NCBI GenBank assembly: GCA_017472145.1
Contig: JAFUQX010000060.1
Location: 1 to 59,756, forward strand
Direction of reading: 5' to 3'
Length of the DNA: 59,756 nt
From: Ruminococcus sp.
GTDB taxonomy: Bacteria > Bacillota > Clostridia > Oscillospirales > Ruminococcaceae
Shown: in pieces, positions 4,533-59,756 of the stretch
Layout: the number at the start of each line of letters is the position of its first letter
How positions within the stretch are numbered: position 1 is the first letter of the stretch
Notes under the pieces: model-generated
What the model saw: only the letters and a program-made list of their open reading frames with translations
What the model was told of the DNA's origin: nothing
Databases searched by the model: none
Made by a program: the position numbers and the translations under genes

Positions 4533-5712
4533 TGATATTCACTCCTCTGTATTTTGCGATCTGCTGCATGTCCTTGTCACCCCGTCCGGACAGACAGATG
4601 ATCATGATCTCGTCCAGGCTCATAGTCGGTGCAAGCTGCTTGGCTGCGGCCACAGCATGAGCTGATTCAATGGCCGGAATGATCCCCTCCGTACGGGACA
4701 GATATTCCAGCGCACAAACCGCTTCCTCGTCTGTTACCGGAACATAGGACGCCCGTCCTGTCTTGTACAGATTGGCATGCTCCGGCCCTACACCCGGATA
4801 ATCCAGACCAGCTGAAATGGAATATACCGGGGCGATCTGGCCCTCCTCATTCTGAAGGAAATAGGACTTCATGCCGTGGAAAATGCCGACATCTCCCTTG
4901 GCCACAGTAGCTGCATGAAGCGCAGTCTCCACGCCCTTTCCGGCGGCCTCTGCACCCACGAGCCTTACGCTCTCATCTGGAATGAAATCATAGAACGCAC
5001 CAATGGCATTTGAGCCGCCGCCTACACAGGCCACTACACAATCCGGAAGCCTGCCTTCCTTCTCCATGAGCTGCGCCTTTGCCTCCTCACTGATGATCTT
5101 CTGGAAATCACGAACCATAGTCGGATAGGGATGCGGTCCCATAGCCGAGCCGATCAGATAGAAGGTGGTATCAATATTCATGCACCAGTTGCGCATGGCC
5201 TCGTTTACGGCATCCTTCAGTGTGCCTGTACCGCTCTCTACGCCGGTTACCTTCGCACCCAGCAGCTCCATACGATATACATTCAGACGCTGGCGCTCAA
5301 TATCCTCCACGCCCATGAAGATCTCACATTCCAGGCCGAACAGCGCACAAACGGTCGCCGTAGCCACACCATGCTGACCTGCACCGGTTTCGGCAATAAT
5401 TCTCTTTTTGCCCATGCGCTTGGCCAGAAGGATCTGCCCCAGCACGTTATTGATCTTATGGGCTCCTGTGTGATTCAGATCCTCACGCTTGAGATAGATC
5501 TTACACCCGCCCAGATCCTTTGTCATCTTCTCTGCATAATACAGCAGAGAGGGCCGGCCGGCATATTCACAGCAGAGCCTGCGGTACTCTGCCCAGAACT
5601 CCGGATCCCTGCTGTATTTATTATAGGCCGCCTCCAGCTCATTCACAGCGTTCATAACCGTTTCCGGTACATACTGTCCGCCGAATTCTCCGAATCTTCC
5701 TGCTTTGCTCAT
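4525..5712 (-). CDS. trpB: Tryptophan synthase beta chain
   Basis: TrpB condenses indole with L-serine using PLP. The 395-residue protein has [13 protein letters not shown] at the N terminus, the PLP-lysine segment [11 protein letters not shown] near residue 85, [13 protein letters not shown] near 110 and the phosphate loop VGGGSNAIG near 235. The start at 5712 is preferred because GAGGAG sits 8 bases upstream. An in-frame GTG at 5721 falls inside that ribosome site. The gene is the middle member of the T-box-controlled trpG-like/trpB/trpA operon. Confidence 0.95.
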
Positions 5713-5726
5713 TTTCTGCACTCCTC

Positions 5727-6305
5727 TTATTCTTTATTCAAGGCCAGCTGAATAAAATTCTCAAGCATGGTCTTTCCGTTCTCATCTGCAAAGGCCTCCG
5801 GCCGGAACATCACCGCAAATACCGGGTACTCTGTATGCTCCGCCGCTGCTGTCTGACCATACTGGTCGCGGGCAATTATCTTCAGGCTCTCCGGAAGCAC
5901 ATCAGCCACCGTATGCATATACGGCTCTTTACAGCCGATCACGCCGGGAAGTCCCCGGAAAATTTCCGACCGTACATCCAGTCCGACATTAAAGGCTCTT
6001 CCGCTCCGACCAGCTGCTGCCTTCTGCAAAGCTGCACCAAAGCACTCTGCTGCGGCCAGACCGCCCAGACCGATTCCCAGAACCGGGATCTTGCCTGCAA
6101 AATACCGGATCAGCTCCATGCACCAGCCTGTATCCTTCGGCATTCCTGTACCCGATGAAAAAATCAGCCCCTCCGGCTGCATCTGCGCAATTTCCTCCGG
6201 AGCTGTATCGTCATTGCGCACGATCCGAACATCCGCCCCAAGGGCCTGTATCTGCTTATACAGAGCATTCACACGGGAATCATAATTATCAATCAACAGG
6301 ATCAT
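5727..6305 (-). CDS. TrpG/PabA-like glutamine amidotransferase homologue lacking the catalytic Cys and His
   Basis: The 192-residue protein is clearly related to anthranilate/aminodeoxychorismate synthase component II, which releases ammonia from glutamine. It keeps LLIDNYDS at the N terminus and the overall class I GATase order. The nucleophile motif, normally G(V/I)CLGHQ, reads GIGLGGL, so Cys is Gly (codon GGT, one base from TGT). The normal QFHPE reads MFRPE, so the catalytic His is Arg and only Glu remains. The PGPG oxyanion strand reads SGTG, and RYHS is changed to YMHT. The frame is intact, with GGAGG 10 bases before the ATG. It is first in the T-box-trpB-trpA operon, and no trpE lies nearby. 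Glutaminase activity is very unlikely; a structural or regulatory role is inference. Confidence 0.85.
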
Positions 6306-6319
6306 ATCTCTGTCACCTC

Positions 6320-6615
6320 CAGAATAAAAAAGACCTGATGTCCCACAGATATGGGACGTCAGGTCTGAATACACTAACGTGATGCCACCCAAATTCAGAA
6401 GCTGCGAGCAGCCTCCCTCATTACGAATACGCCGGACTCTCCGGATATATTCCAATCTGCTAACGGTGATAAGCCGGCATCAGCTACTCGGCAAAAAGCC
6501 TTTCACATCGCTCCTCACAAATCCATTCACACTGCTGCGCACACACCGGCTTCCACCAACTCCGGCTCTCTGAGCTGCCGCCTTGCAGGCTACTTGCCTC
6601 TGATCCAAGGATTTA
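6320..6615 (-). promoter_or_regulatory. T-box riboswitch, tryptophan-specific leader of the trp operon
   Basis: Read on the minus strand, the leader has the Stem I signature (AGAGAGCCGG ... GTTGGTGGAAG, 6541-6570), a specifier-loop TGG (Trp codon, 6523-6525, in context GAATGGAT), and the T-box motif GGGTGGCATCACG around 6378-6391. A terminator hairpin (AGACCTGA...TCAGGTCT plus T run, 6326-6366) follows. The first gene begins 15 bases beyond the terminator region. Uncharged tRNA-Trp is expected to favour the antiterminator and switch the operon on. The codon choice fits the trpB/trpA cargo. Confidence 0.9.
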
Positions 6616-6623
6616 CTTTTTTC

Positions 6624-6652
6624 ATTATAACCCTTTTCTCACGTTTTGTCAA
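6624..6652 (-). promoter_or_regulatory. Sigma-A promoter of the trp T-box transcript
   Basis: A perfect TTGACA (6647-6652) and TATAAT (6624-6629) are separated by 17 bases on the minus strand, just before the T-box leader. Confidence 0.9.
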
Positions 6653-6680
6653 GAGTTTTCCGCCGCATTCGTCAAATATT

Positions 6681-9296
6681 TTACTTCGTCTTCTTTTCCT
6701 TTACCAGCATCATCACGCCCTTGACGATCTGAACCAGAACCATAGAGCCAAAGCTCAGACCATGAACGGCGGCAAAAAGCGCACCCGTCAGGCCGTCATC
6801 GATCTGGAACAGACCATGCAGCGCCGGAATCAGCAGAACCGCATTGATAAAGAACATACCAACCACAAAAGCCAGCAGGCCAGCCTTGTTGTTGAACATT
6901 TTTCTGGTAAACAATACAGGCTTTTCAGCCTTACAGCTGAAGCCGTGCCACAGACGGGACATACACAGTGTTGCAAACGCCATAGTCATGGCAAGGCCGG
7001 CAGATTCAAAGCCGAGCCAGCCGATGAGATAAGCGGCCGCAGTTGCAATGGAAATGGCTACACCGGAATACCCGACCTGTCCCAGGAATGCCGGAGTCAG
7101 GATCGACTCTCCGGCCGGGCGGGGCTTGCGCTTCATAACACTGTCGGAGTGCGGCTCCAGTCCCAGTGCAATGGCCGGGAGAGAGTCAGTCAGCAGGTTG
7201 ATAAACAGCAGATGGATGGCTGCAAAGGGCTGCGCATAGCCCATGATGGAGCTCCACAATACCACCAGAATTCCAGCCAGATTACCGGACAGCAGGAACA
7301 GAATGGAACGCTTGATGTTGTCATAGATATTCCGTCCGTTCTTGACAGCCTTTACAATGGTTGCAAAGTTATCATCCGCCAGAACCATAGCCGCCGCATC
7401 CTTGGATACCTCTGTACCAGTAATACCCATGGCAACGCCTACATCGGCCTGCTTCAGAGCCGGAGCGTCATTTACACCGTCACCGGTCATGGCAACGATA
7501 CAGTCTCTCTGCTGCCAGGCCTTGACGATACGGATCTTATGCTCCGGGGTTACACGGGCATAAACAGACTTGTCGGCCACGAATTCAATCATTTCCTCAT
7601 CAGAAATACCATCCAGAACAGAGCCTTCCACCGCTTCGTTTGCACGTTCCAGAATACCAATTTCCTTTGCGATCGCAGAAGCCGTAACCACATGGTCACC
7701 GGTGATCATAACCGGCTTGATGCCGGCCTGACGGCACTCTGCAACGGCCTGCTTGGATTCCGGACGAGGCGGATCCATCATCGCAATGAGTCCCATATAT
7801 TCAAGATCATATTCATCAGAAAGAGCCAGATGGTCGCCGCTGAATTCCTTGCAGGCAAAGCACAGCAGACGCAGTCCCTGCTTGGAAAGCTCCTCCACCT
7901 GCTCCTGAATCTGTCGCTTCTGAGAGGCGGAAATGTTCATGCGCTCACACAACACATCCGCTGCACCCTTGGTAAACATGATCCGCTTGCCATCCATCAT
8001 ATTCAGCGTGGACATGAGCTTCCGGTCGGAATCGAAGGGGATCTCGCTGATACGGGAGTAGCAGGCACGGATCTCTGCATCATCCATTCCCACACGATGG
8101 GCGAAATTGATCAATGCCGTTTCGGTGGGATCTCCGATCTCCATGCCGTCCTTGCAGGTGGAGTCATTACACAGAACGGAAGCGATCACCAGCGCACGCT
8201 CATCTGCATGATCCACACTTGCATCATCCGCACCGATCATATGACCCTGAGAAACAATTTTGCGGACGGTCATTTTGTTCTGAGTCAGCGTACCGGTCTT
8301 GTCGGAACAGATAACCGATACAGAGCCGAGTCCCTCCACGGCCTGAAGTTTACGCATAATGGCATTTTCCTTGGCCATTTTCTGTGTACCGAAGGAAAGC
8401 ACGATGGTTACGATGGAGCTGAGTGCTTCCGGGATGGCTGCAACAGCCAGCGCAATGGCAAACATCAGAGAGCTCATGACACTTTCAAAGCCGATGGTCT
8501 CCGCTCTCCACAGCTGAAGACCGAATACCAGAGCACAGATAATCAGAATCACGATAGAAAGCTTCCGGCCGAACTGGTCCAGGGTCTTCTGGAGCGGCGT
8601 CTTTCTTTCCTGTGCGCTCTGGATCAGGGCTGCGATCTTGCCCACCTCTGTATTCATACCAATATCCGTTACAATGCACTTACCACGGCCATAGGTCACA
8701 AAGCTGCCGGAATATACCATGGTATGACGATCGCCCAGCGGAACATCATCCGATATAGCCTCCAGGCTCTTGTCAATGTTGGTACTCTCGCCAGTCAGCG
8801 CACTTTCGTTCGTCTGGAGGGAGGCGCATTCGATCAGACGTCCATCCGCCGGAATCTGGTCTCCGGCCTCCAGAAGCAGCACATCGCCCACTACTATATC
8901 CTCAGAATCGATCACTACACTCTGGCCGTTTCTCATTACCTTTGCGGCCGGAGCGGACAGCTTCTTCAGATTATCCAGAGACTTCTCAGCCTTCAGCGTC
9001 TGTACAGTACCCAGGATCGCATTCATGGTAATCACTACAAGAATAACGATCGTACTTTCCAGATCCCCCGTAATGGCCGAAATGATCGCAGCTGCAATCA
9101 GGATGATAACCAGAAAATCCTTGAACTGCTCAAGGAATATCATCAGGCCGGATTTCTTTTTCTTCTCCGCCAGCATATTCCTGCCGTACTTTTCCCGGTT
9201 TTTCTGCACCTGTTCCTCTTTCAGACCGGACTGACCGGAGCTGAACTCAAAGTACAGATCCTCCGGAGTCTGCTGATACCGTTTCTGTTCGTTCAT
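6681..9296 (-). CDS. P-type (P2) cation-transporting ATPase, probable Mn2+/Ca2+ exporter
   Basis: This 871-residue membrane pump has the full P2A layout: an N-terminal cation-ATPase domain, actuator loop ALTGEST near 165, M4 motif VAAIPEAL near 290, phosphorylation site SDKTGTLTQNKMTV near 330, the hinge MTGDGVNDAPALKQADVGVA near 600, and C-terminal helices. It couples ATP hydrolysis to cation export across the cytoplasmic membrane. Such proteins are usually annotated as calcium pumps, and PEAL replaces the more usual PEGL. The leader is a yybP-ykoY element, a known Mn2+ sensor that controls similar ATPases (for example Lactococcus yoaB). Manganese efflux is therefore the better prediction. 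GGAGG precedes the ATG. Confidence 0.9.
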   Translation of the reverse strand: MNEQKRYQQTPEDLYFEFSSGQSGLKEEQVQKNREKYGRNMLAEKKKKSGLMIFLEQFKDFLVIILIAAAIISAITGDLESTIVILVVITMNAILGTVQTLKAEKSLDNLKKLSAPAAKVMRNGQSVVIDSEDIVVGDVLLLEAGDQIPADGRLIECASLQTNESALTGESTNIDKSLEAISDDVPLGDRHTMVYSGSFVTYGRGKCIVTDIGMNTEVGKIAALIQSAQERKTPLQKTLDQFGRKLSIVILIICALVFGLQLWRAETIGFESVMSSLMFAIALAVAAIPEALSSIVTIVLSFGTQKMAKENAIMRKLQAVEGLGSVSVICSDKTGTLTQNKMTVRKIVSQGHMIGADDASVDHADERALVIASVLCNDSTCKDGMEIGDPTETALINFAHRVGMDDAEIRACYSRISEIPFDSDRKLMSTLNMMDGKRIMFTKGAADVLCERMNISASQKRQIQEQVEELSKQGLRLLCFACKEFSGDHLALSDEYDLEYMGLIAMMDPPRPESKQAVAECRQAGIKPVMITGDHVVTASAIAKEIGILERANEAVEGSVLDGISDEEMIEFVADKSVYARVTPEHKIRIVKAWQQRDCIVAMTGDGVNDAPALKQADVGVAMGITGTEVSKDAAAMVLADDNFATIVKAVKNGRNIYDNIKRSILFLLSGNLAGILVVLWSSIMGYAQPFAAIHLLFINLLTDSLPAIALGLEPHSDSVMKRKPRPAGESILTPAFLGQVGYSGVAISIATAAAYLIGWLGFESAGLAMTMAFATLCMSRLWHGFSCKAEKPVLFTRKMFNNKAGLLAFVVGMFFINAVLLIPALHGLFQIDDGLTGALFAAVHGLSFGSMVLVQIVKGVMMLVKEKKTK

Positions 9297-10623: not shown

Positions 10624-11589
10624 TTATTCCAGTCCGGCTCCGACTCTTGCATATCGGGTCAGAACCTCTGTTGCATCGGCGATATCGACCGTTCCGTCCT
10701 GGTTGTAGTCTGCTTTAGACAGGTCTGCATCATCCGGGAGCAGACCTGCTCCATACTGCGCATACAGGGTCAGGATTTCTGTCGCATCTTCGATCTCATA
10801 GACAAGATCCTCGTCCATATCCCCGGCACTCACCATTTCGCCCTTTTGCAGGACATATTCATAACGATTGGGCACAATTTCGATATGTGCATATCCGCCC
10901 TCCCGGCCATACTGTGTGCAGATTCTGGAAAGTTTGCTTATCCCAAGCTCCATATCGGACTCAATGGCCTCATAGAGAACGTTGTAATCGATGCCGTTCT
11001 CAAAAGCCTCCTCAGACAGGAAAACCGCATGCGCCTTGCCTTGGAGATTGTCTACCTCCTCCACCATCAGGTCAGGAAAATCCTCCACTGTCAGCTCTGC
11101 ATCCTCCGTTGTATAAATCATCACGCCCAGCCGGCCATGAGCCATATAGTTCGTTCTATACTCCTGAACGACCACATCCACATCCGGATTCTCCATCAGA
11201 AGCTCTTTACACGCCTGACCAGCCCCGTCCGCTTTCACCCAGTAATAGTTCTGGCTGTAGATGTAGGACGCCTTCAGGGCCTGGAACATATGTAAGGAAG
11301 AAACCTCCAGAATTTCTGCTGTCTCCGGCAGGCCCAGTACTTCCGCCGTTACCTCCTCCAGGTCTGTACGGATAACAAAAGTGTCTCCGGTCGTTCCATA
11401 GGATACCGTTCCCATAAGCGGATCATCCTCATCCGAAACATATTCTCCGTCCTCGTATACAGTCGGGACTTCTACCCATTGATACATGGGAAGGGATAAA
11501 GGATCAAACGCAAACACAGAGATGGTGCTTCCCCACAGCATTGTGATGCTGGTGCAGACAGCAAGTAAGCCTTTCATTGTTCTTTTCAT
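10624..11589 (-). CDS. Secreted protein of unknown function with C-terminal dockerin
   Basis: This 321-residue protein has a signal peptide (MKRTMKGLLAVCTSITMLWG, cleavage near residue 28). An unrecognised mixed alpha/beta region of about 220 residues follows, then a dockerin. The dockerin has two Ca2+-binding repeats, a weak first one ending DATEILTLYAQYGAGL and a canonical second one NQDGTVDIADATEVLTRYA. Dockerins dock enzymes onto cohesins of a scaffoldin at the cell surface. The start at 11589 has GGAGG 7 bases upstream. The gene follows a secreted trypsin-like protease by 13 bases. The role of the N-terminal region is unknown; an inhibitor, substrate or partner of that protease are possibilities by context only. 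Confidence 0.85.
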   Translation of the reverse strand: MKRTMKGLLAVCTSITMLWGSTISVFAFDPLSLPMYQWVEVPTVYEDGEYVSDEDDPLMGTVSYGTTGDTFVIRTDLEEVTAEVLGLPETAEILEVSSLHMFQALKASYIYSQNYYWVKADGAGQACKELLMENPDVDVVVQEYRTNYMAHGRLGVMIYTTEDAELTVEDFPDLMVEEVDNLQGKAHAVFLSEEAFENGIDYNVLYEAIESDMELGISKLSRICTQYGREGGYAHIEIVPNRYEYVLQKGEMVSAGDMDEDLVYEIEDATEILTLYAQYGAGLLPDDADLSKADYNQDGTVDIADATEVLTRYARVGAGLE

Positions 11590-11602
11590 AAAAATACCTC
11601 CT

Positions 11603-12481
11603 TTATAAGTTGACATATGGATTGCCCATATAGAATTTTAATACGGGTGATGTGATACGCACACCCGAATTATATGTATTTCCACCATGTGTATGAATTC
11701 CGATGGCAGTTTTATACACGTCGCCGCTTTGCATTGTTTCCGTAATATAAACTGGACCGCCGCTATCGCCGCCAGATGTATCTGCTGTATAAAACAGCCT
11801 TTGGTCAGCATTTTCATCATTCGGCAAATACACAATCGGAGCAATAGCCTGATACCTCTTTCCATACACCCATCCGTTAATAACATCATCACCCGATAAT
11901 TGCGGAAAACCTGTAACAGTAACATTCTTTCCAGACGCCATAAATTCATCCGTTGCCAAGCCCAGATAAATGCGTCCATATTCCATAAGATTCACATTAG
12001 AATCCAGTTCAATCAATGCATAATCATAGTTGCTATTACCAGTCTGACCATATTCCATCGGGATATGATAATATATCGGTTCATATGTAGCAACTTCTGC
12101 ACCATTGGCATCAATGATTCGGACCACATTTGAAACAATAGCACCATTACTGTATACACAGTGTGCAGCAGTTGCAATCAGATTTTTTCCAATTATAAAA
12201 CCTGTACCACCGCTGCCATCCAAATGGACAACCGCAGTCTCCGAGCTTTCCACCATTTCATTTGTACCGCCAATTATGCTTCTTGCATTGACGGAATAAT
12301 CGGCATCATAATCTACAGTGAGATTATAGGTCGTATAGTTACCAGTTGCGTAGTTGTACTTCCGATACCTTCTTGTATCAGCTCCCGAATCAGCCAGAGC
12401 CGGTACGATTGCTGTACTGACGATTACAACCAGCATAACTGCTGTTGTCAGTGCAAGAGCTGTAAGTTTCTTAATGCTCAT
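11603..12481 (-). CDS. Secreted trypsin-like (S1, V8/glutamyl-endopeptidase type) serine protease
   Basis: The 292-residue protein has a signal peptide (about residues 1-31) and a short propeptide. The chymotrypsin-fold domain carries the catalytic triad: His in TAAHCVY near 110, Asp in NYDYALIEL near 167, and Ser in SGGDSGGP near 255. SIIGGTN near residue 68 resembles the mature N terminus of activated S1 proteases. There is no dockerin of its own. It lies between a dockerin-only gene 14 bases upstream and a dockerin gene 13 bases downstream, all with AAGGAGG sites, so the three form one operon. A paralogue with the same neighbourhood lies at 58670-59665. Confidence 0.9.
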   Translation of the reverse strand: MSIKKLTALALTTAVMLVVIVSTAIVPALADSGADTRRYRKYNYATGNYTTYNLTVDYDADYSVNARSIIGGTNEMVESSETAVVHLDGSGGTGFIIGKNLIATAAHCVYSNGAIVSNVVRIIDANGAEVATYEPIYYHIPMEYGQTGNSNYDYALIELDSNVNLMEYGRIYLGLATDEFMASGKNVTVTGFPQLSGDDVINGWVYGKRYQAIAPIVYLPNDENADQRLFYTADTSGGDSGGPVYITETMQSGDVYKTAIGIHTHGGNTYNSGVRITSPVLKFYMGNPYVNL

Positions 12482-12495
12482 TTTTCACTCCTCCT

Positions 12496-12771
12496 TTAAT
12501 TATTCCCAACCTGGTTGTCTGCGTAAATTTGCAGGATCTCGTACACATCCGCTACGCTCACCACATCGTTCTGATTTACATCCAATGATGTTTCATCATA
12601 TACTGCATACTCTCCGTTCAGAAAATCCCAAACGTATTCGGTGTCTGCATATTCAACAACGCCATCTCCGTTCAAGTCCCCACGCAGTGCAGCAGCAGCA
12701 TACAACGTTCCTGTTGTCATGACTACAGTCGTCGCTGCAATAAAAAGTGCAACTCCAAGTTTTTTCAGCAT
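12496..12771 (-). CDS. Secreted stand-alone dockerin protein
   Basis: The 91-residue product is a signal peptide (about 1-27) followed almost directly by a dockerin. The first Ca2+ loop is DLNGDGVVEYAD and the second DVNQNDVVSVAD, each followed by a helix (YVWDFLNG; YEILQIYA). There is no room for a catalytic domain. Dockerins normally tether a fused module to a cohesin, so a free dockerin could block, prime or bridge cohesins, or act as an adaptor for the protease encoded next. AAAGGAG lies 7 bases before the ATG. It is the first gene of the dockerin-protease-dockerin operon. Confidence 0.88.
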   Translation of the reverse strand: MLKKLGVALFIAATTVVMTTGTLYAAAALRGDLNGDGVVEYADTEYVWDFLNGEYAVYDETSLDVNQNDVVSVADVYEILQIYADNQVGNN

Positions 12772-24019: not shown

Positions 24020-27000
24020 ATGAGCATGAAAAAATTCAGAACAAAAACGCTTGCTGTTCTTATGGCTGCAAGCACTCTGACATCTATGTTCTCTGCTATG
24101 AATGCAGAGGCTTATGATGGCGGAGCAAACACATCCGCAGATGTGGTATATGGCACTATGGCCAATGTACCGACAGTAGCAGCCAGCAGCGCTGTGTCCA
24201 TCATCGAGGCTAAGGGCTATGAGGAAGCCGCTTATGTTGAATGGGATGCAGTAGACGGCGCTGACGGCTATAACGTTTACTGTGACGGCGTACAGATCGA
24301 TTCTATGCTGATCCGTCAGTATTCGGGTTATTTCAGAGCAGATGCAGTGGGTCTCAAGGCCGGCAGCCACACTCTGAAGATCGTTCCCACAAGCGGCGGA
24401 ACAGAAATGACATCTGCTGCGGCTGAGGTAACGGTTACATCTACATCCTATGACAGAAGCGGCTTCTGCTTTGCTAAGAATTCTGTAACAGGCGGCTCCG
24501 GCGTTGGTGCTTATAACGACGACGGTACGCTCAAGAGCAATGCAGTTGTTCTGTATGTAACTGAGGAAACCAAGAACACAGTTACTATGGATGTACAGAC
24601 AAGCAGCTCCAAAACACAGTCCTGCACTGGTATCGGCGCAATCCTTAAGGCCATGCAGAAGGGTGCTGAAACCCGTCCGGTTGTAATCCGTATCATCGGT
24701 AAGGTAACCATAGACGGCATAAATACATCCGGCGATACAAACAACATGCTGCTGAAGGCCAGCTCAACCGACAGCCCCATTCAGAACATCACCGTTGAGG
24801 GTATTGGTGAAGACGCTGTATGCTACGGCTTTGGTATCCGCTGCCAGAGAGCAAGAAGCATTGAGATCCGTAACCTGGCTGTTATGCTGTTCGGCGATGA
24901 CGGTATCGCACTGGAAACAGATAACTATAACATCTGGGTTCATGACAATGACATTTTCTACGGTACAGCTGGAAGCGATGCTGACCAGGCCAAGGGCGAC
25001 GGCTCTATGGATCTGAAGAACGATTCCAAGTACATTACCGTTTCTTATAACCACTTCTGGGATTCCGGAAAGATGTCCCTGTGCGGTATGACAAGTGAGA
25101 CAGCTGAAAACTGGATCACCTATCACCACAACTGGTTCGACCACTCCGACTCCCGTCATCCGAGAATCCGTACCATGTCCGTTCATGTATACAACAACTA
25201 CTATGACGGCAACTCCAAGTATGGTGTAGGTGCGGTTCTGGATGCAGATGCATTTGTTGAAAACAACTACTTCAGAAACTGCAAATATCCGATGCTGATC
25301 TGTGATCAGGGTTCTGATCAGGGCACGTTTGATGATGGCGTAGGCGCAATGATCAAGGCCTATGGCAACTACATTGAGGGTGCTACCAGCTATATCACAC
25401 AGAACGACAACAGCACCAGCTTTGACGCTTATGAGGTAGCCAATCGTAATGATCAGGTACCGAGCAGTGTAACCTCTCTGGACGGCTACGGCTACAACAA
25501 TTTTGATACAGACAGCAGCATCATGTATGATTATACACCGGATGCAGCTGCAGAAGTACCGTCCGTCGTTACGACTCTGGCTGGCCGTCTCAACGGCGGT
25601 GACTTCAAATGGGAATTCGATGATTCCGTAGACGATACTGATTCCGGCATGAATGACGGACTGATGGCTGCTGTTAAGTCTTATACAACAGGCGTTATTG
25701 CAATCGGCAGCGGCTTCACTTCTGATAACAATACAACTCCGGTCGTTACAACGACAGCTACCACAAGCAATCAGACTCCGTCCACAACAGCCTCCACCAC
25801 AGCAAAGCCTGTTACAACAACTGCGGCTGCTGTTGAAGGCGGTTATGTTCACAACTTCACAGAAAGCGGAACATCCAGCAGCTTCTATACCATCTCCGGC
25901 AACCTTTCCAGCTCCAAGGGAACTGTAACCTATTCCGGCCAGACACTGACACAGTGCCTGAAGATGGAAACTGCAACCAGTATTACATTCAACGCTCCTG
26001 CAAGCGGTACACTCACGCTGGTATTTGCTGAAGCCGGCAAGAGAGTAAAGATCGACGGCACAGCCTATACTACAGATACAAGCGGTGTTGTTACTGTGGA
26101 TCTGGCTGCTGGTTCTCACACCATCGCCAAGGGCGATTCTGCAAACCTGTTCTATATGGTTTATGCAACCTCCGGCACTGTTGTTACCACAACGCAGCAG
26201 CCGACAACCTCTGGCACAGCAACACAGACCACAACCAAGGCCTCTGCACAGACAACGGCTTCTTCTGTTACCAACAGCCCGGTGGTTGAAGGTGATCTTG
26301 AGGTCGTAAGCGTTGGCGGCTGGAACGAAATGATGTATCTCGTTGTATCCGGCGTTGCGGATGCGGATGTAACTGCTGTTTCCTACAGCGGCCCGGTAAG
26401 CGGCTCTCTCACCGGCGAGGATTTCCAGTATCTGGTAAGAGATGTAGACAACGGCGCACGTGTAGATGTAACCGGTCTGACCTCTGGTATATACTCTATC
26501 ACAATGGAAACCACAAAGGGCTCTGTAACTGTAAGTGATGTTGCCGTAGGCGCACAGGATCGTTCCGGCTTTGCACACTTCAATTACACATCCGGCGTTG
26601 GTGCATACAATGACGACGGTACACTGAAGGACAATGCGATCGTTCTTTATGTAACAAACGACAATAAGGATACCGTATCTGTAACATCCAAGGATGGCAC
26701 GAAGGTAACTGGTATCGGTAATATCCTGAACTCTGCTGGTCAGGACAACGGCTCCGGTGCTACCTCCAAGGGCGGTACACCGAACACAAACAGCGACATC
26801 ATCGAAAAGATCGCTAAGGACGGTACTCCGCTGGTAATCAGAATCATCGGCAACGTAGAAGCTCCGGCTGGTCTGACTGAATTCGACTCTGTAAACTACG
26901 GCGGCTCTGTTGGTGACAACGGCTTTATGGCCAGAATGCAGTCCGGTAAGGACATCACCATTGAAGGTATCGGTACAGACGCATGCATTAATGGCTGGGG

Positions 27001-28189
27001 TATCCACTTCATCGCAGAAACTGCAAACCCCGACCTTGGCAAGAGCTTTGAAGTAAGAAACATCGCTTTCAGAAATGTTCCGGAAGACTGTCTGGGTATG
27101 GAAGGTCAGCAGGGCGATGACGCACTGACTGCTCCGGTTGAAAGATGCTGGATCCACAACTGCGAATTCTATGCTCCGTCTATCGCAAATCCGGCTGAAT
27201 CCGATAAGGACGGCGGCGATGGTGCTTGTGACTTCAAGCGCGGCATGTATTTCACAAACAGCTACTGCTACTACGAGGGCTATCACAAGACAAACCTTGT
27301 TGGTTCTTCTGACACAAGTCTCCAGTACCACCTGACATATCACCACAACTACTGGAAGAACTGCGAATCCCGTGGCCCGCTGGCTCGTCAGGCTGACATC
27401 CATATGTACAACAACGTATTTGATGGCCAGACCAGCTACTGTATGAATCCGAGAGCAAATGCCTATATCTTCTCCGAATACAACTATTTCAAGGATTCCA
27501 AGGATCCGATGGAAGTTACAAGCGGCGGTGTAGTAAAGAGCTATAACGACGTATTTGATAATGTAAGAGGCAACCAGCAGGGTACGATCGTAAGCAGCAG
27601 AGAGGAAGCTGTTGCATCCGAATGTATTTATGCCGGCTTTGAAAACAACTCCTCTATGTCCTATATCCCGTCCGGAAGCTATGCTCTTACAGAGACTACA
27701 AGCACGCTTGGTACGGATCTGACCACTATGTTTGAAGCCGACGGCGGCTGTATGGATGAGATGAGCATCTCCGGCAGTGTTACTGTTACTCCTGGTTCTA
27801 CTGCATCCACAACAACGACAACGACGACAACCACTACTACCACCACTACTACCGCTACAAATACGCCGGCTACTTCCACAAACGCTCCGGCTACTACCAC
27901 AAATACTCCGTCTACAACAACAACCGGTTCTGCTCAGAGCACTGCAACCTCCACTACAACTAAGACTGAGCTGGAGGGTCTCTGCGGCGACCTGAACCTG
28001 GATGGAAAGGTGTCCCTGGTAGACGTTGTTTATCTGAACAAGTACATTGCTCAGACACTGGTATTCGTTGACCTTCAGAAATCGAATGCAGACTGCTGCG
28101 ATGATGACAAGATCAATTCTGCTGACTCCACAGCCCTGCTCGAATTCGTTATTGAAACAGTAAAGGCTCTGCCGGTATATCCGGAATAA
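24020..28189 (+). CDS. Secreted two-domain (PL1) pectate lyase with C-terminal dockerin
   Basis: The 1389-residue extracellular enzyme should cleave polygalacturonate by beta-elimination. Order: signal peptide (1-31); Fn3-like module (about 60-140); PL1 beta-helix 1 (about 145-550) with YHHNWFDHSDSRHPRIR; Thr-rich linker (about 569-604); beta-sandwich/CBM-like module (about 607-717); second linker; Ig-like module (about 755-842); PL1 beta-helix 2 (about 843-1227) with YHHNYWKNCESRGPLAR; long Thr linker (about 1254-1314); dockerin (about 1319-1389; DLNLDGKVSLVD and a weaker CDDDKINSADS loop). Both helices keep the Arg-x-x-x-x-Arg type active-site segment. AGGAGG precedes the ATG. It is monocistronic. 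Confidence 0.93.
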   Translation: MSMKKFRTKTLAVLMAASTLTSMFSAMNAEAYDGGANTSADVVYGTMANVPTVAASSAVSIIEAKGYEEAAYVEWDAVDGADGYNVYCDGVQIDSMLIRQYSGYFRADAVGLKAGSHTLKIVPTSGGTEMTSAAAEVTVTSTSYDRSGFCFAKNSVTGGSGVGAYNDDGTLKSNAVVLYVTEETKNTVTMDVQTSSSKTQSCTGIGAILKAMQKGAETRPVVIRIIGKVTIDGINTSGDTNNMLLKASSTDSPIQNITVEGIGEDAVCYGFGIRCQRARSIEIRNLAVMLFGDDGIALETDNYNIWVHDNDIFYGTAGSDADQAKGDGSMDLKNDSKYITVSYNHFWDSGKMSLCGMTSETAENWITYHHNWFDHSDSRHPRIRTMSVHVYNNYYDGNSKYGVGAVLDADAFVENNYFRNCKYPMLICDQGSDQGTFDDGVGAMIKAYGNYIEGATSYITQNDNSTSFDAYEVANRNDQVPSSVTSLDGYGYNNFDTDSSIMYDYTPDAAAEVPSVVTTLAGRLNGGDFKWEFDDSVDDTDSGMNDGLMAAVKSYTTGVIAIGSGFTSDNNTTPVVTTTATTSNQTPSTTASTTAKPVTTTAAAVEGGYVHNFTESGTSSSFYTISGNLSSSKGTVTYSGQTLTQCLKMETATSITFNAPASGTLTLVFAEAGKRVKIDGTAYTTDTSGVVTVDLAAGSHTIAKGDSANLFYMVYATSGTVVTTTQQPTTSGTATQTTTKASAQTTASSVTNSPVVEGDLEVVSVGGWNEMMYLVVSGVADADVTAVSYSGPVSGSLTGEDFQYLVRDVDNGARVDVTGLTSGIYSITMETTKGSVTVSDVAVGAQDRSGFAHFNYTSGVGAYNDDGTLKDNAIVLYVTNDNKDTVSVTSKDGTKVTGIGNILNSAGQDNGSGATSKGGTPNTNSDIIEKIAKDGTPLVIRIIGNVEAPAGLTEFDSVNYGGSVGDNGFMARMQSGKDITIEGIGTDACINGWGIHFIAETANPDLGKSFEVRNIAFRNVPEDCLGMEGQQGDDALTAPVERCWIHNCEFYAPSIANPAESDKDGGDGACDFKRGMYFTNSYCYYEGYHKTNLVGSSDTSLQYHLTYHHNYWKNCESRGPLARQADIHMYNNVFDGQTSYCMNPRANAYIFSEYNYFKDSKDPMEVTSGGVVKSYNDVFDNVRGNQQGTIVSSREEAVASECIYAGFENNSSMSYIPSGSYALTETTSTLGTDLTTMFEADGGCMDEMSISGSVTVTPGSTASTTTTTTTTTTTTTTTATNTPATSTNAPATTTNTPSTTTTGSAQSTATSTTTKTELEGLCGDLNLDGKVSLVDVVYLNKYIAQTLVFVDLQKSNADCCDDDKINSADSTALLEFVIETVKALPVYPE

Positions 28190-31627: not shown

Positions 31628-33142
31628 TCAGATAAACTGATCCCAGGAAATATTAAGCGATGCACCGACACTTGCATAATAAGTCAGAATATTCGTTGCA
31701 TCACTGACGGTCAGCTGACCACCCTCACCCTGGGTCTGGGACTGTGTGTCTGTATCAGCCAGGAAAAAGGCCAGAGCTTCAATGCGCTCCGATGTGCCGT
31801 CTGTCAGTGTCGGCTCGAGACTGGCACCATACTGAGCGTAATAGGTAAGAACGGCAGTGGCATCTGCAACGTTAACCTCCCCGTCCATATTCACATCACC
31901 CTTCAGACCTACCAGAACCGTCTGCTTTACTTCCTCTCCATTCTCATCGGTAATGGCCGTATCGCCGCAGTACATGGAAACATCGCCCATGTAGTAATTC
32001 TGCTCAGAGCCTTCATACAGCTCCTTCGGCGTTGTGCCGGCATTTACTGCATTGGTAACATCCAGCTGCTGCTGTGTGCCATCTGTGAAGGCCACATCAC
32101 ACTCATATGCAGCATTCATGGAATTTGCAGTGATCATCTTGTTGTTCTCTGCATAGTAGCACACATACTCCGGTGCAGTAATCGATGTACCAGATGCACT
32201 TTCTACGCCCACGGCCACTGCGGCCTCCTCATACTTCACCGGCAGATACCGGTTCTTATCGTTCTCCTTGACATTAACAGAGGAATAGGTCTGATCAAAC
32301 TTGATATTATAAATACCGCAGGGCGTTCCCGGCTTCAGATAGAGATCGTTCTCCACCAGCGGAAAATCATCGGAATTGCCCAGGAAGCTGGCTGTCGTTC
32401 CAGCACCTGCGATCCAGCTGCACATATTGTTGCTGGAGGGAATCTTGTCCCCCACATTCAGCAGCTCCGGCTGATAGTAGGGAATCTCGCCTACGGCCGT
32501 AGCCACCTCAGTCCGGTCCGTATAGATATCCGCAAACTGATAGGTATAGGTCGCAGAGCCATCATCATGAAGTGTCAGCGGACACACGATATTATGTGTC
32601 TGAGAATCCGGTGCCAGCTCACCGGCTTCATTTACATAATAACGACCGTGCAGCTTGAAGGTAATGGTGTCATTTCCGTTATAATAAATCGGCGAGCCGG
32701 TGGTCGGATTGCTGCAATAATCACGAATCTGAGCATCAAAGGTCTTGGTTCTGTACGCACCGTCCTCTACAATGCCAAAGCAGAAGGGCCGGTAGGATGT
32801 GGTAAAGCTGCCGCCCAGATATTCATAGACGGCCTCCTCATAGGTATCCGTAGGACAGGTCATATTGCGGAAATAGGTATATCCGCTTTCATCCGGCAGA
32901 AGCTTGCACTGGGCTGAGCTGATGCCGATGGAAGAACCGGTGTAACCCTTCAGGTATACCCCGGCATGAATGGCTGTCTCGCCAGAAGCCGCTTCCTCCG
33001 CAGTCAGAGCATACCGCTCCAGCTGAATGCTCTGGGTATAGGTGCTGGTGCTTGCATATTCAGCAGCCTGAGCAGAAAAGGAAGCAGACAGCAGAACGGC
33101 CAGGGCCGAGCTTACGGAAAGTGCTTGTGCGATTTTTTTCAT
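31628..33142 (-). CDS. Large secreted protein of unknown function with C-terminal dockerin
   Basis: The 504-residue protein has a signal peptide (about 1-26, ...SFSAQA) and about 380 residues of beta-rich, aromatic-rich sequence without a recognised catalytic motif. A dockerin occupies about 420-500. The first dockerin repeat is DVNMDGEVNVADATAVLTYYA; the second is interrupted (a TQGEGGQ insertion) before VSDATNILTYYASVGASL. The segment PGTPCGIYNIKF near 290 resembles the closing strands of Ig-like or cohesin-like domains seen in ruminococcal surface proteins, which is a weak hint only. The ATG at 33142 has GGAGG 6 bases upstream. It is monocistronic. Confidence 0.82.
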   Translation of the reverse strand: MKKIAQALSVSSALAVLLSASFSAQAAEYASTSTYTQSIQLERYALTAEEAASGETAIHAGVYLKGYTGSSIGISSAQCKLLPDESGYTYFRNMTCPTDTYEEAVYEYLGGSFTTSYRPFCFGIVEDGAYRTKTFDAQIRDYCSNPTTGSPIYYNGNDTITFKLHGRYYVNEAGELAPDSQTHNIVCPLTLHDDGSATYTYQFADIYTDRTEVATAVGEIPYYQPELLNVGDKIPSSNNMCSWIAGAGTTASFLGNSDDFPLVENDLYLKPGTPCGIYNIKFDQTYSSVNVKENDKNRYLPVKYEEAAVAVGVESASGTSITAPEYVCYYAENNKMITANSMNAAYECDVAFTDGTQQQLDVTNAVNAGTTPKELYEGSEQNYYMGDVSMYCGDTAITDENGEEVKQTVLVGLKGDVNMDGEVNVADATAVLTYYAQYGASLEPTLTDGTSERIEALAFFLADTDTQSQTQGEGGQLTVSDATNILTYYASVGASLNISWDQFI

Positions 33143-33458
33143 AAAAAACCTCCTTGTAATTTGGGTCAGAAAATGATGGATCTTCAAATCAGAATACATC
33201 CTTTCAGGGATATCCCCCTTCCCTGTGTAATTTTATTATAACAGACTCAGGCCGGAATTTCTACAACATTTTTAGATAAAATTCGATAATCCAACAAAGT
33301 AATTTTTTTGCAACATATACAGTTCTATCCTTTTCCCGGCAAAATCACAGGTCCTTCTCCAAAACAAGTCAGAACAAGCGTCCTTTCGCTCTTTTCACTG
33401 CAAAGGAAATATGGTATGCTGAAAATACAGAAAATATACAGAAAAGGAGTTTTGTAAA
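33143..33458. other. Divergent intergenic region upstream of two small transcripts
   Basis: This 316-base AT-rich gap lies between the minus-strand dockerin gene and a plus-strand small gene. A minus-strand TATAAT (33235-33240) without a good -35 may serve the dockerin gene. A weak TTTTCA-17-TATGCT pair just upstream of the plus gene may serve the other. I see no RNA element or gene. Confidence 0.45.
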
Positions 33459-51721: not shown

Positions 51722-52867
51722 ATGAAAAAGCAAAGGAATGCAGCGATGCTGTCCGTGACGTTCATGCTGTGTCTTGCCATGTGTGCAGGTCTTGCGCAGC
51801 CGGTACAGGTCTCTGCTGCAGACGACGTCAGTCCGGCTGATTCTGTAATGGCCGTACCTGAATGGGTACCGCAGAGCTTTACTGACACAGTGCAGTTTGT
51901 CCAGAATCACGGGAGAACATTTGTAAGCGATGGTTACATCTGCATTGTAACGAAAAGTGAAGAAAGCTCCTACAGACGTGAGGTTCGTTTCAGTGACTGC
52001 TCAGCTGGATATGCTGATGACGTTGTGTTCCATGAGAAATATACTTTTGAAAAGCCGGATGAATCAGATACAGAAGCAACAGAGGCGTATGAGCAGTATC
52101 TTAATGATCTGGGACTTTATGAGTATGTTGAACTTGGTTATACACTTGAAGCGTGCTTTGAGGTAACTGTATGTGCACCCTCTGCTCCCGGACGCATGGA
52201 GCTGAGCATTGTGACACTCAACGAATACGGAGAAGAGTCTGACTGCACAGACCTGAGCTTCGAGATATCAGAGGATGGCATAGAGGAAACAGACATCTTC
52301 TCCTGGCTGCCCGACTGTACAACGGAATATCGTACATATGTCAAGGAATATGGCGATGTTTCCGTTCACGATGGCTATGTTGTTTTCTGCGGCCACCCCT
52401 GCTATGACGGCGGCTACATATGGAGCAATACGCAGACCGGTACAGGCCGGATGAAGTCTGTTATGGATTACAGTATTACCCAGGAGCTTGTAGGACCTCT
52501 GCCGCCCGGCGGCGCACCGGACGAACTGCTGGTATATGAACCGCTGATCTCCGGTACGGTTGCTATGACCTGGGGGCAAAGGCAATATTGGATGAATGAA
52601 ACATCCCTTATGGACAGTGGATTCTTCCGGATCGATGCAGACGGTTCTGTTATGAAAATCGATGCGTCTGAAATGGAATATCCTCTGTATGGCGACTGCA
52701 ATAATGATAACGCCGTTTCGATTATGGACGCACTGGTATTGCAGAAATGGTCCATCGGCCTGAGCGAGCTTCCGTCTTATGTAAACGCCGATATCAATAG
52801 TGACAGCAAGGTAAATGTATTCGACCTCACTGCACTGAAAGAGCAGCTGATGGGGTCGCAGGAGTAA
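51722..52867 (+). CDS. Secreted protein of unknown function with C-terminal dockerin
   Basis: The 381-residue protein has a signal peptide (about 1-32, ending VQVSAA) and about 285 acidic, Tyr-rich residues with no recognised domain. A dockerin occupies about 320-381, with repeats DCNNDNAVSIMDALVLQKWS and DINSDSKVNVFDLTALKEQL. AAGGAGG precedes the ATG. It has its own promoter and terminator. The dockerin helices (DALVLQKW, DLTALKEQ) differ from the DAT-V-L-T-Y-A type seen at 10624 and 31628, suggesting a different cohesin partner. Confidence 0.83.
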   Translation: MKKQRNAAMLSVTFMLCLAMCAGLAQPVQVSAADDVSPADSVMAVPEWVPQSFTDTVQFVQNHGRTFVSDGYICIVTKSEESSYRREVRFSDCSAGYADDVVFHEKYTFEKPDESDTEATEAYEQYLNDLGLYEYVELGYTLEACFEVTVCAPSAPGRMELSIVTLNEYGEESDCTDLSFEISEDGIEETDIFSWLPDCTTEYRTYVKEYGDVSVHDGYVVFCGHPCYDGGYIWSNTQTGTGRMKSVMDYSITQELVGPLPPGGAPDELLVYEPLISGTVAMTWGQRQYWMNETSLMDSGFFRIDADGSVMKIDASEMEYPLYGDCNNDNAVSIMDALVLQKWSIGLSELPSYVNADINSDSKVNVFDLTALKEQLMGSQE

Positions 52868-57547: not shown

Positions 57548-58657
57548 CTATTCAATTGTAACGGGGAGCACATCCACCTTATCAGTAAGATAGTAGAGCA
57601 GTACCGTCACATCGGCCGAGTCGATGAGTCCATCGCCGTTGCAGTCTGCGGCGGCGGTCTGGCTTTCGTTCAGCGTGATCGCCTGGATGTTCGCTTTACT
57701 CAGGGTGATTGCGTCCAGCACCGTAACCTTTCCGTCCTGGTTCAGGTCACCATGGGTCGTGGCCGGCTTTTCCAGCTCGGCGAGGATGTCGATCGGGCCT
57801 TCACCAAGAACAGGAATATCATAGCCCTTTTCATCTGCAACGTATATGTTTGCATCTATTATATGCTCACCCTCTAGTTCGCTCACTGCATCAAGCACAG
57901 CAAAAAAGTCCTCAGCAGTTGCGCCCTCATATGCAAAATCGACCCGATATCCGGAATGAAGCTCATCACTAATATAACAGCTTACTTTTTTCACAGCTGC
58001 TTCCGGACAAATGCTCGTTACAAACAATTCCATTTCTTCCTGTGTTCCAGCATAGTCATAAACACACAAGCCATCTGCAATCAAAGGCTTTGCAATAGCA
58101 CTGAAGGGGGTGTACTCTGCACTTTCGATACAGCCTGCTTCATACATTTCCGAGCACATCGCCATGAGCGTGTCGTACTTTTCTTCTATGGAATTATAGC
58201 GTTTCAGTATCTCAGCGTCAACATCCTCATAATCACAGCTGGACACATTTATAGAGTCCATAATACGAACGGTTTTTCCAAGTGCAAGCAGCGTTGCATG
58301 ATCCATATCAAGCGCTTCACTGTACTTATTATAGATCGTCTCCCAACCATCATTCGTAATGGTGAGGTCAACCATACTGAATGCAAAGTAATAGTAGCTG
58401 GCAAAGAACTGTCGATGTTCTATGCTTCTGTAATTCAGCGCACCATACTCAAAAAGCCATTCGTGATTCTGATACAGCTCACTATCCTCAAAGGACTCAT
58501 AGCCTTCGGGCGGTGTACAGAGATCCGTAACCGAACTGGCATATCTATAATCCCAGAGTGCGCCAACCGGAAGAACCACTCCCGTGGAACTTATCAGCAT
58601 GCTCAGTGCAGCCAATCCGCTGACGATCGCAGTCATCACTTTCTTTAACTTTCTCAT
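57548..58657 (-). CDS. Secreted protein of unknown function with C-terminal dockerin
   Basis: The 369-residue protein has a signal peptide (about 1-33), a helical middle region (about 70-210) and an alpha/beta region (about 215-290) with no recognised motif. A dockerin occupies about 303-369, with DLNQDGKVTVLDAITLSKAN and DCNGDGLIDSADVTVLLYYL. The start at 58657 is favoured because GGGGGA lies 6 bases upstream; the ATG at 58663 touches that site. It follows a secreted trypsin-like protease gene by only 6-12 bases, mirroring the pair at 10624-12481. A partner, inhibitor or substrate relationship with the protease is inference. Confidence 0.84.
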   Translation of the reverse strand: MRKLKKVMTAIVSGLAALSMLISSTGVVLPVGALWDYRYASSVTDLCTPPEGYESFEDSELYQNHEWLFEYGALNYRSIEHRQFFASYYYFAFSMVDLTITNDGWETIYNKYSEALDMDHATLLALGKTVRIMDSINVSSCDYEDVDAEILKRYNSIEEKYDTLMAMCSEMYEAGCIESAEYTPFSAIAKPLIADGLCVYDYAGTQEEMELFVTSICPEAAVKKVSCYISDELHSGYRVDFAYEGATAEDFFAVLDAVSELEGEHIIDANIYVADEKGYDIPVLGEGPIDILAELEKPATTHGDLNQDGKVTVLDAITLSKANIQAITLNESQTAAADCNGDGLIDSADVTVLLYYLTDKVDVLPVTIE

Positions 58658-58669
58658 ATTCATTCCCCC

Positions 58670-59682: not shown

Positions 59683-59756
59683 TCAGCCTGTATACGGCAG
59701 GGACGGAACGACCTCAATGATATAGTCCATCAGGATCTTATAATCCACAATGTCCA
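59683..59756 (-). CDS. C-terminal end of a dockerin protein (cut by window edge)
   Basis: Reading the minus strand from the window end gives, before a TGA at 59683-59685, DIVDYKILMDYIIEVVPSLP and a short YTG tail. This is the helix and tail of a second dockerin repeat, similar to the pectate lyase ending (SADSTALLEFVIETVKALP). Only about 23 codons are visible. It lies 17 bases upstream of the protease gene, so this cluster also has the order dockerin, protease, dockerin. Confidence 0.75.
   Translation of the reverse strand, partial: DIVDYKILMDYIIEVVPSLPYTG

Follow-up and report, generated by a model that had tools for sequence, protein, structure and literature searches.

The window, a stretch of 59,756 nucleotides of a Ruminococcus sp. 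genome (assembly GCA_017472145.1, contig JAFUQX010000060.1), carries at positions 10624–12771 a trio of genes on the minus strand. From upstream to downstream, the trio consists of:

12496..12771, minus strand: dockerin-only secreted protein of 91 aa, with a signal-peptide-like start and one dockerin (Dockerin_1, 24.8 bits)
11603..12481, minus strand: S1 (trypsin/V8-like) serine protease of 292 aa (Trypsin, PF00089, 57.7 bits)
10624..11616, minus strand: X-dockerin protein of 330 aa, with a signal-peptide-like start, an X module and a C-terminal dockerin (own-genome dockerin profile, 25.9 bits)

The initial annotation had described these three genes at the same coordinates and with the same domains, and Pfam and the own-genome profile agree with it. 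A signal-peptide-like segment, as read from the sequence, begins all three proteins. In the protease it is followed by a propeptide-like N-terminal segment and the catalytic residues H107, D153 and S240, and this triad together with the PF00089 score places the enzyme in family S1; Pfam found no dockerin in it. The duplicated calcium-binding repeats of the type I dockerin (PF00404, cut-off 22.9 bits) score above the cut-off in the dockerin-only protein and in the X-dockerin protein of the second cluster described below. The dockerin of the 330-aa protein was missed by Pfam at an E value of 0.1 and was recognised only once a profile had been made from 15 of the genome's own dockerins (E = 6.7e-7). 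This protein probably starts at an internal ATG (11589), which follows a stretch that by eye resembles a ribosome-binding site.

A P-type cation ATPase gene (6681–9296, minus strand) lies downstream of the trio; its relative in genome G262 has no S1 or dockerin gene within 3 kb upstream. Elsewhere in the window are a pectate lyase of 1389 aa with a CBM77 and a C-terminal dockerin (24020–28189, plus strand), a dockerin protein of 381 aa whose N-terminal part has no Pfam match (51722–52867, plus strand), and a protein of 523 aa (31628–33199, minus strand) that weakly resembles a dockerin by the own-genome profile (26 bits) and has no Pfam match. In the whole genome, we counted 124 dockerin matches among the 150 of 196 candidates that were scored and three cohesin matches, two of them above the cut-off.

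At the end of the contig lies a second cluster:

59683..59756, minus strand: 3′ end of a further dockerin-only gene, truncated where the contig stops; the identical sequence terminates contig C6
58670..59665, minus strand: second protease of family S1, 331 aa, lacking a dockerin (Trypsin_2, 44.9 bits)
57548..58663, minus strand: second X-dockerin protein, 371 aa (Dockerin_1, 43.1 bits)

The initial annotation had also called this a paralogous cluster of the same order. Its protease and X-dockerin genes are present and, of the dockerin-only gene, the tail is readable; because this tail comprises the last 23 codons of such a gene, with a translation resembling other dockerin-only tails, the claim of the same order is right. 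A genome search with the protease returned five places. The copies on contigs C44 and C43 are complete trios, and that on C6 consists of a protease and two X-dockerin genes on a contig that, like the contig of the window, stops in this dockerin-only tail. All five copies thus have a dockerin-only gene upstream, two of them as a tail only, and an X-dockerin gene downstream. Because the contig-end sequences within the dockerin-only gene are identical (window 59683–59756 and L008 7449–7522), near-identical copies probably broke the assembly, and further copies may be missing from it. The C33-end and C6 copies are nearly identical over their first 180 bases and 97% identical over the last 245 bases, which include the dockerin of X, and the bodies of protease and X diverge between these, a pattern of constant ends and a variable middle.

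We collected related loci from four sets. A scan of named genomes gave 17, of which 13 are titled Ruminococcus. Matches were present in 16 of 197 genomes of the family (some to other S1 proteases), in 7 of 394 genomes of the order and in 12 of 16 genomes of the genus, the last two counts including the present genome. Requiring a score of at least 150 and a coverage of at least 240 positions, and removing duplicates, gave 38 distinct full-length proteases, five of them from the present genome. The dockerin is N-terminal within the same protein in 16 of the 38 and is encoded by a separate small gene directly upstream in 18; the remaining four are the two contig-end copies of the present genome, for which the tail is seen, and two loci (L088 and L090) with a small dockerin gene downstream. 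Every one of the 38 is therefore associated with a dockerin of the N-terminal class. Directly downstream, a dockerin gene follows in 35 of the 38. One of the three exceptions ends after 75 bases and another after 697, and in the third, L034, the 1.5 kb after the full-length protease contains no dockerin gene. Among 18 weaker S1 matches, a dockerin accompanies four (one fused, three downstream) and is absent within 400 nt from 14, some of these loci having little flanking sequence.

The linkage of S1 protease and dockerin, for which the initial annotation had proposed a search in relatives, hence recurs across the genus and beyond, and because there are five copies in one genome and near-universal linkage among the 38, the trio is not a chance arrangement. 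Its earlier description as a functional unit agrees with this conservation, and the trio is the sole conserved part of the neighbourhood that we found: no neighbour family beyond it was common to more than 3 of 24 loci. The cassette also occurs on two contigs titled Alistipes (L012 and L020). Because the flanks of L012 are 70–97% identical to those of L017, a contig titled Ruminococcus, the title of L012 is probably wrong.

The fused and split layouts point to the origin of the dockerin-only gene. Outside its own genome, the 91-aa protein is most similar to the dockerin that forms the N-terminus of an S1 protease in L026 (normalised score 0.36). In the N-terminal class, to which 34 dockerins were assigned by position or length, the nearest foreign dockerin was of the same class in 30 of 34 cases (permutation p = 0.0005). 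Of the 81 other dockerins, 12 had a nearest relative in the N-terminal class. The nearest relative of the 19 dockerin-only proteins was another dockerin-only protein in 11 cases, a protease-fused dockerin in five and some other dockerin in three, two of these last (L011 and L085) being pieces of other genes admitted by the length rule. Parsimony on a tree of 30 proteases required seven changes between the fused and split states, compared with a mean of 10 for shuffled labels, and at least four changes fall on well supported branches of what is a quick tree with some long branches. Because the same dockerin is fused to the protease in 16 and separate upstream of it in 18 of the 38, the dockerin-only protein is, judging from these sequence relationships, the protease's own N-terminal dockerin in detached form. 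Fusion in relatives is a classical sign that two proteins act together and is no proof of binding. One proposal of the initial annotation, a protease docked in trans through partner proteins, gains indirect support in this way, because dockerin and protease form one protein in those 16 cases.

The columns of the His/Asp/Ser triad were invariant in all 30 aligned relatives. One protease copy in L024 (2578–3891), which counts among the 38 and lies outside this alignment, has by eye lost the catalytic His and Ser; the same locus holds an intact dockerin-protease copy at 5560–6855, behind a dockerin gene and after the degenerate homologue. The nearest solved structures by sequence are the Spl proteases and glutamyl endopeptidases (E values from 5e-6 to 1e-3). 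Spl, V8 and other glutamyl endopeptidases are grouped as S1B, and the Spl proteases are tandem diversified paralogues. The enzymes described here resemble that group in their S1 fold and propeptide-like N-terminus and are closest to it by sequence. They differ at the aligned pocket position, which we take to be that of the specificity-pocket His of V8: the His, a feature of the S1B glutamyl endopeptidases, is present in both copies of the window, yet in only 13 of the 30 rows, the others holding Asn (9) or one of Leu, Ala, Val, Cys, Phe and Tyr (8). To our knowledge, Spl, V8 and the glutamyl endopeptidases carry no dockerin.

The segment before the catalytic domain often ends in a motif resembling Asn-x-Arg, followed by x-Ile/Val-Ile-Gly. 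At the maturation-motif position, Arg is found in 17 and Lys in 2 of the 30 rows; by our own count, the 13 aligned fused proteins have five Arg and one Lys. Because the dockerin precedes the propeptide-like segment in the fused proteins, cleavage at this point would, by analogy with known zymogens, free the enzyme from its dockerin. We also considered a role in anti-phage defence; the matches of the protease in PADLOC and PHROGs are to protease domains of other systems, and two X proteins gave weak sub-matches in these searches (E = 0.0016 and 0.014).

The X module is of another character. For ten X modules searched at E values up to 5 and seven X-dockerin proteins searched up to 1, no Pfam family other than dockerin scored above its cut-off. 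Nine of the ten, that of the window's trio included, had no match at all, and the tenth (L050) had three sub-cut-off matches to unrelated families. No known inhibitor or pro-region profile (I9 or alpha-lytic type) was among the matches. Neither profile-profile comparison nor the loose Pfam cut-off yielded a fold; by eye alone, X can be read as beta-alpha-beta-beta-alpha-beta. One alignable set of 17 X modules from several genomes includes that of the second cluster. Against the PDB, its profile matched dockerins; beyond the dockerin part, all hits were weak, with E values of 0.006 or higher, and included centrins and an Lrp-type regulator (E = 0.077). Two PDB entries whose chains are named "Serine protease" (8x39 and 8x3a) match the dockerin part of the profile. 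The X module of the window's trio had only three weak matches outside its own genome, among 296 other genomes of the family. Profile comparison of 18 X groups linked five at 44–66% probability and the rest, that of the trio included, weakly or not at all, and homology among most X groups could not be shown. A comparison of half against half, at one cut, detected no internal duplication of X. One X-dockerin protein of 597 aa (L006, 6453–8246) has two X modules in tandem.

The dockerins of these partner proteins vary far less. In 56 pairs from within a genome, the median identity was 90% for the dockerins and 27% for the X modules, and the dockerin was the more alike in 55; in 91 pairs from different genomes, the medians were 36 and 17%. 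Identities were counted over the shorter sequence, and values of 1–10% for some X pairs of the present genome mean that the pair is not alignable. Several genomes, this one included, have more than one dockerin type, with 31–37% identity between types. Pairwise dN/dS for eight pairs ranged from 0.22 to 0.69 for X and from 0 to 0.31 for the attached dockerins, and two S1 pairs gave 0.61 and 0.21. The X module is thus constrained, more loosely than the dockerin, and on these sequence comparisons the X modules of the eight pairs are under purifying selection. Positive selection on X finds no support in these values, all eight of which lie below 1.

Sites with preserved flanks give a measure of this variability. 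The copy on contig C6 and those at L018 and L021 all adjoin argG-argH, with argG 96–99% and argH 90–93% identical; between species, the proteases at this site are 35–50% and the X modules 25–31% identical. At the site of L025 and L093, the flanks are 84–91%, the dockerin-only proteins 81%, the proteases 51% and the X modules 40% identical. Judged by these identities, protease and X diverge far faster than the neighbouring genes. The argG/argH site is empty in genome G138, measuring about 0.1 kb compared with 2.7 kb with the cassette in G262 (the genome of L021), and neither S1 nor dockerin was found in the 6–8 kb upstream of argG in G208 and G027.

This divergence bears on a rival explanation, by which the cellulosome would simply recruit a digestive enzyme through the dockerin, as an ordinary protease for scavenging; the dockerin-only gene would be a neutral by-product of gene fission and the X-dockerin proteins further cellulosome parts. 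Dockerin-bearing peptidases are indeed described in passages on R. flavefaciens (PMC2930009) and Limousia (PMC12997984). A split state with a dockerin that is still recognisable in 18 of the 38, and in the contig-end copies as well, is hardly what neutral fission would leave, and the divergence relative to the flanks is far above housekeeping expectation; we consider this explanation unlikely. In the portions of the literature consulted, the R. flavefaciens FD-1 cellulosome is reported to carry transglutaminase-like and cysteine peptidases and Doc-serpins on dockerins (PMC2930009, PMC5301203), to have function-unassigned regions in 118 of its 222 dockerin proteins, about half (PMC2930009), and dockerins occur with subtilisins elsewhere (PMC2605481). 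The word "trypsin" does not occur in the main text of PMC2930009 or PMC5301203. As in those accounts of ruminococcal cellulosomes, secreted proteases here are dockerin-borne, uncharacterised dockerin proteins are many, some genes are consecutive and some dockerins N-terminal. Unlike the ruminococcal cellulosome peptidases, the enzyme described here often has its dockerin in a separate gene and forms a unit with a hypervariable docked partner. We found no published account of the dockerin, S1 protease and X-dockerin arrangement by title or abstract start in mostly non-subscription literature.

Remnants indicate how the cassettes change. C-terminal S1 fragments lie directly before X-dockerin genes in six loci (L008, L023, L027, L028, L089 and L119). 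The L089 fragment site is the same place as L050, the L028 fragment is broken by a stop and yet also lies near a contig end, and fragments that run off the sequence edge (L053 and L111) were not counted as decay. An orphan X-dockerin gene in the present genome (L082, contig C4, 3758–5026) has no protease within 10 kb, and its dockerin shares 94–96% identity with the ones in C6 and in the second cluster of the window. In two genomes of the same genus (G138 and G027), no S1 was found and X-dockerin genes are kept, some of them broken and one near a contig end. Remnants and orphans together suggest that units duplicate, that proteases decay from the front and that partners are often kept. Orphan immunity genes in toxin-immunity loci behave likewise, and orphans of any useful surface module might equally be retained.

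Protease and adjacent X do not change in strict concert. Across 27 loci, leaving out the near copy L046 as well as L024 and L034, the Mantel correlation between S1 and the adjacent X was 0.13 (p = 0.07), or 0.075 (p = 0.20) when controlled for the dockerin. Choosing the best-matching X in each array gave 0.205 (p = 0.026), uncontrolled for the dockerin, and S1 correlated with the dockerin of the X gene at 0.245 (p = 0.011), which exceeds the value for the adjacent X. Strict co-evolution of S1 with the adjacent X is thus not supported. L012 and L017 occupy a common site with flanks 70–97% identical; there, the proteases belong to different clades (42% identity) and the X modules are alike (55–69%), so the two genes do not always move together as a fixed pair. 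X acts either on more than one protease or not on the protease at all. The initial annotation had counted random variation of the flanking dockerin proteins as evidence against its proposal, and for the downstream partner this applies in half: X is extremely variable and the adjacent X does not significantly track the protease, but the gene order is kept and the X modules of the eight compared pairs are under purifying selection.

These results invite the view that the X-dockerin proteins are independent variable surface modules, for binding or as decoys against host, phage or rivals, which have the locus and the arms race in common with the protease and do not act on it. The lack of significant co-divergence, the similar X modules beside different proteases at L012 and L017, and the X-dockerin genes without a protease on contig C4 and in G138 and G027 all agree with it. 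The dockerin gene directly behind 35 of 38 proteases and the protease tails before extra X genes speak against it, because they suggest that protease and X spread as one unit, and on balance we regard such independence as rather unlikely. Another possibility is that the X-dockerin proteins are substrates that the protease matures or releases from the surface, as adjacent genes with signal-peptide-like starts on both proteins might suggest. By eye, no cleavage site between X and dockerin is conserved across X groups, the pocket residue of the protease varies and orphan X-dockerin genes exist without a protease, so we hold this to be very improbable. Nothing was found in favour of a proteolytic maturation or editing of cohesin-dockerin complexes, which had been among the functions first suggested.

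The cassette is real, conserved and unusual, and its anatomy and evolution are well supported. Its recurrence together with the fast change of enzyme and partner suggests an enzyme checked by a surface-bound partner in an arms race. The explanation that we prefer is an anchored, fast-diversifying protease restrained by a docked X partner, to which we assign a probability of roughly 0.42; X as the restrainer of the protease would be the single most likely reading, at under one half. It builds on what the sequences show: the gene order, the equivalence of separate and fused dockerins, the intact triad, the hypervariability of protease and X against steady flanks and the extra X genes behind protease tails. 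Also in its favour are the dockerin linkage of all 38 proteases, the varied pocket residue, the purifying selection on X in eight pairs and the weak, uncontrolled correlation of S1 with the best-matching X of each array. The locus would be a self-contained extracellular cassette of a protease docking tag, a secreted S1 precursor and one or more docked X-dockerin partners. The dockerin would hold the precursor on a scaffoldin, and the mature enzyme would be freed by a cut that separates its catalytic domain from the dockerin/propeptide part, so that the fused and split layouts could serve equally well. The X-dockerin proteins, docked on the scaffold of the producer itself, would bind and restrain the protease as an inhibitor or folding partner and would protect the producer's surface. 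The rapid change would be driven by an arms race, whether with neighbours or with other targets.

Several observations weigh against a docked restrainer of the protease. Where dockerin and protease are encoded separately, the dockerin-only protein is left with no further domain that could hold the protease, and of the 13 aligned fused proteins only 5 show the Arg-type maturation motif clearly. Adjacent X and S1 lack significant co-divergence, with strict pairing broken at L012 and L017. X matches no Pfam inhibitor or pro-region and has no convincing PDB match outside the dockerin, most X groups are without demonstrable mutual homology and L034 is without a downstream dockerin gene.

Staphopain with staphostatin and AprA with AprI are pairs of a secreted protease and a co-encoded inhibitor. 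As in these pairs, a protease gene adjoins a partner gene; unlike theirs, the partner here is secreted, dockerin-tethered, hypervariable and often arrayed, and its inhibitor role is putative. CDI and similar systems are polymorphic toxin-immunity loci with orphan modules. The cassette shares with them constant ends and a variable middle, effector C-terminal remnants followed by partner genes, and presence or absence at a fixed site. It differs in that variation of the adjacent partner does not significantly follow that of the protease, and toxicity is only putative here. We consider it doubtful, though conceivable, that the cassette is a cellulosome-borne polymorphic protease/immunity system, in which gut ruminococci would carry fast-changing proteases on the scaffold at their surface and shield themselves with dockerin-tethered, exchangeable inhibitor arrays. 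If that were true, cohesin-dockerin docking would replace the delivery domain of a secretion system.

The locus gives one uncharacterised class of dockerin proteins a genetic partner and an evolutionary signature of constant docking ends, a hypervariable middle and orphans, so that the role of the X-dockerin class becomes directly testable. The repeated exchange of covalent and separate dockerins on one enzyme is, in addition, a natural test of a dockerin acting in trans.
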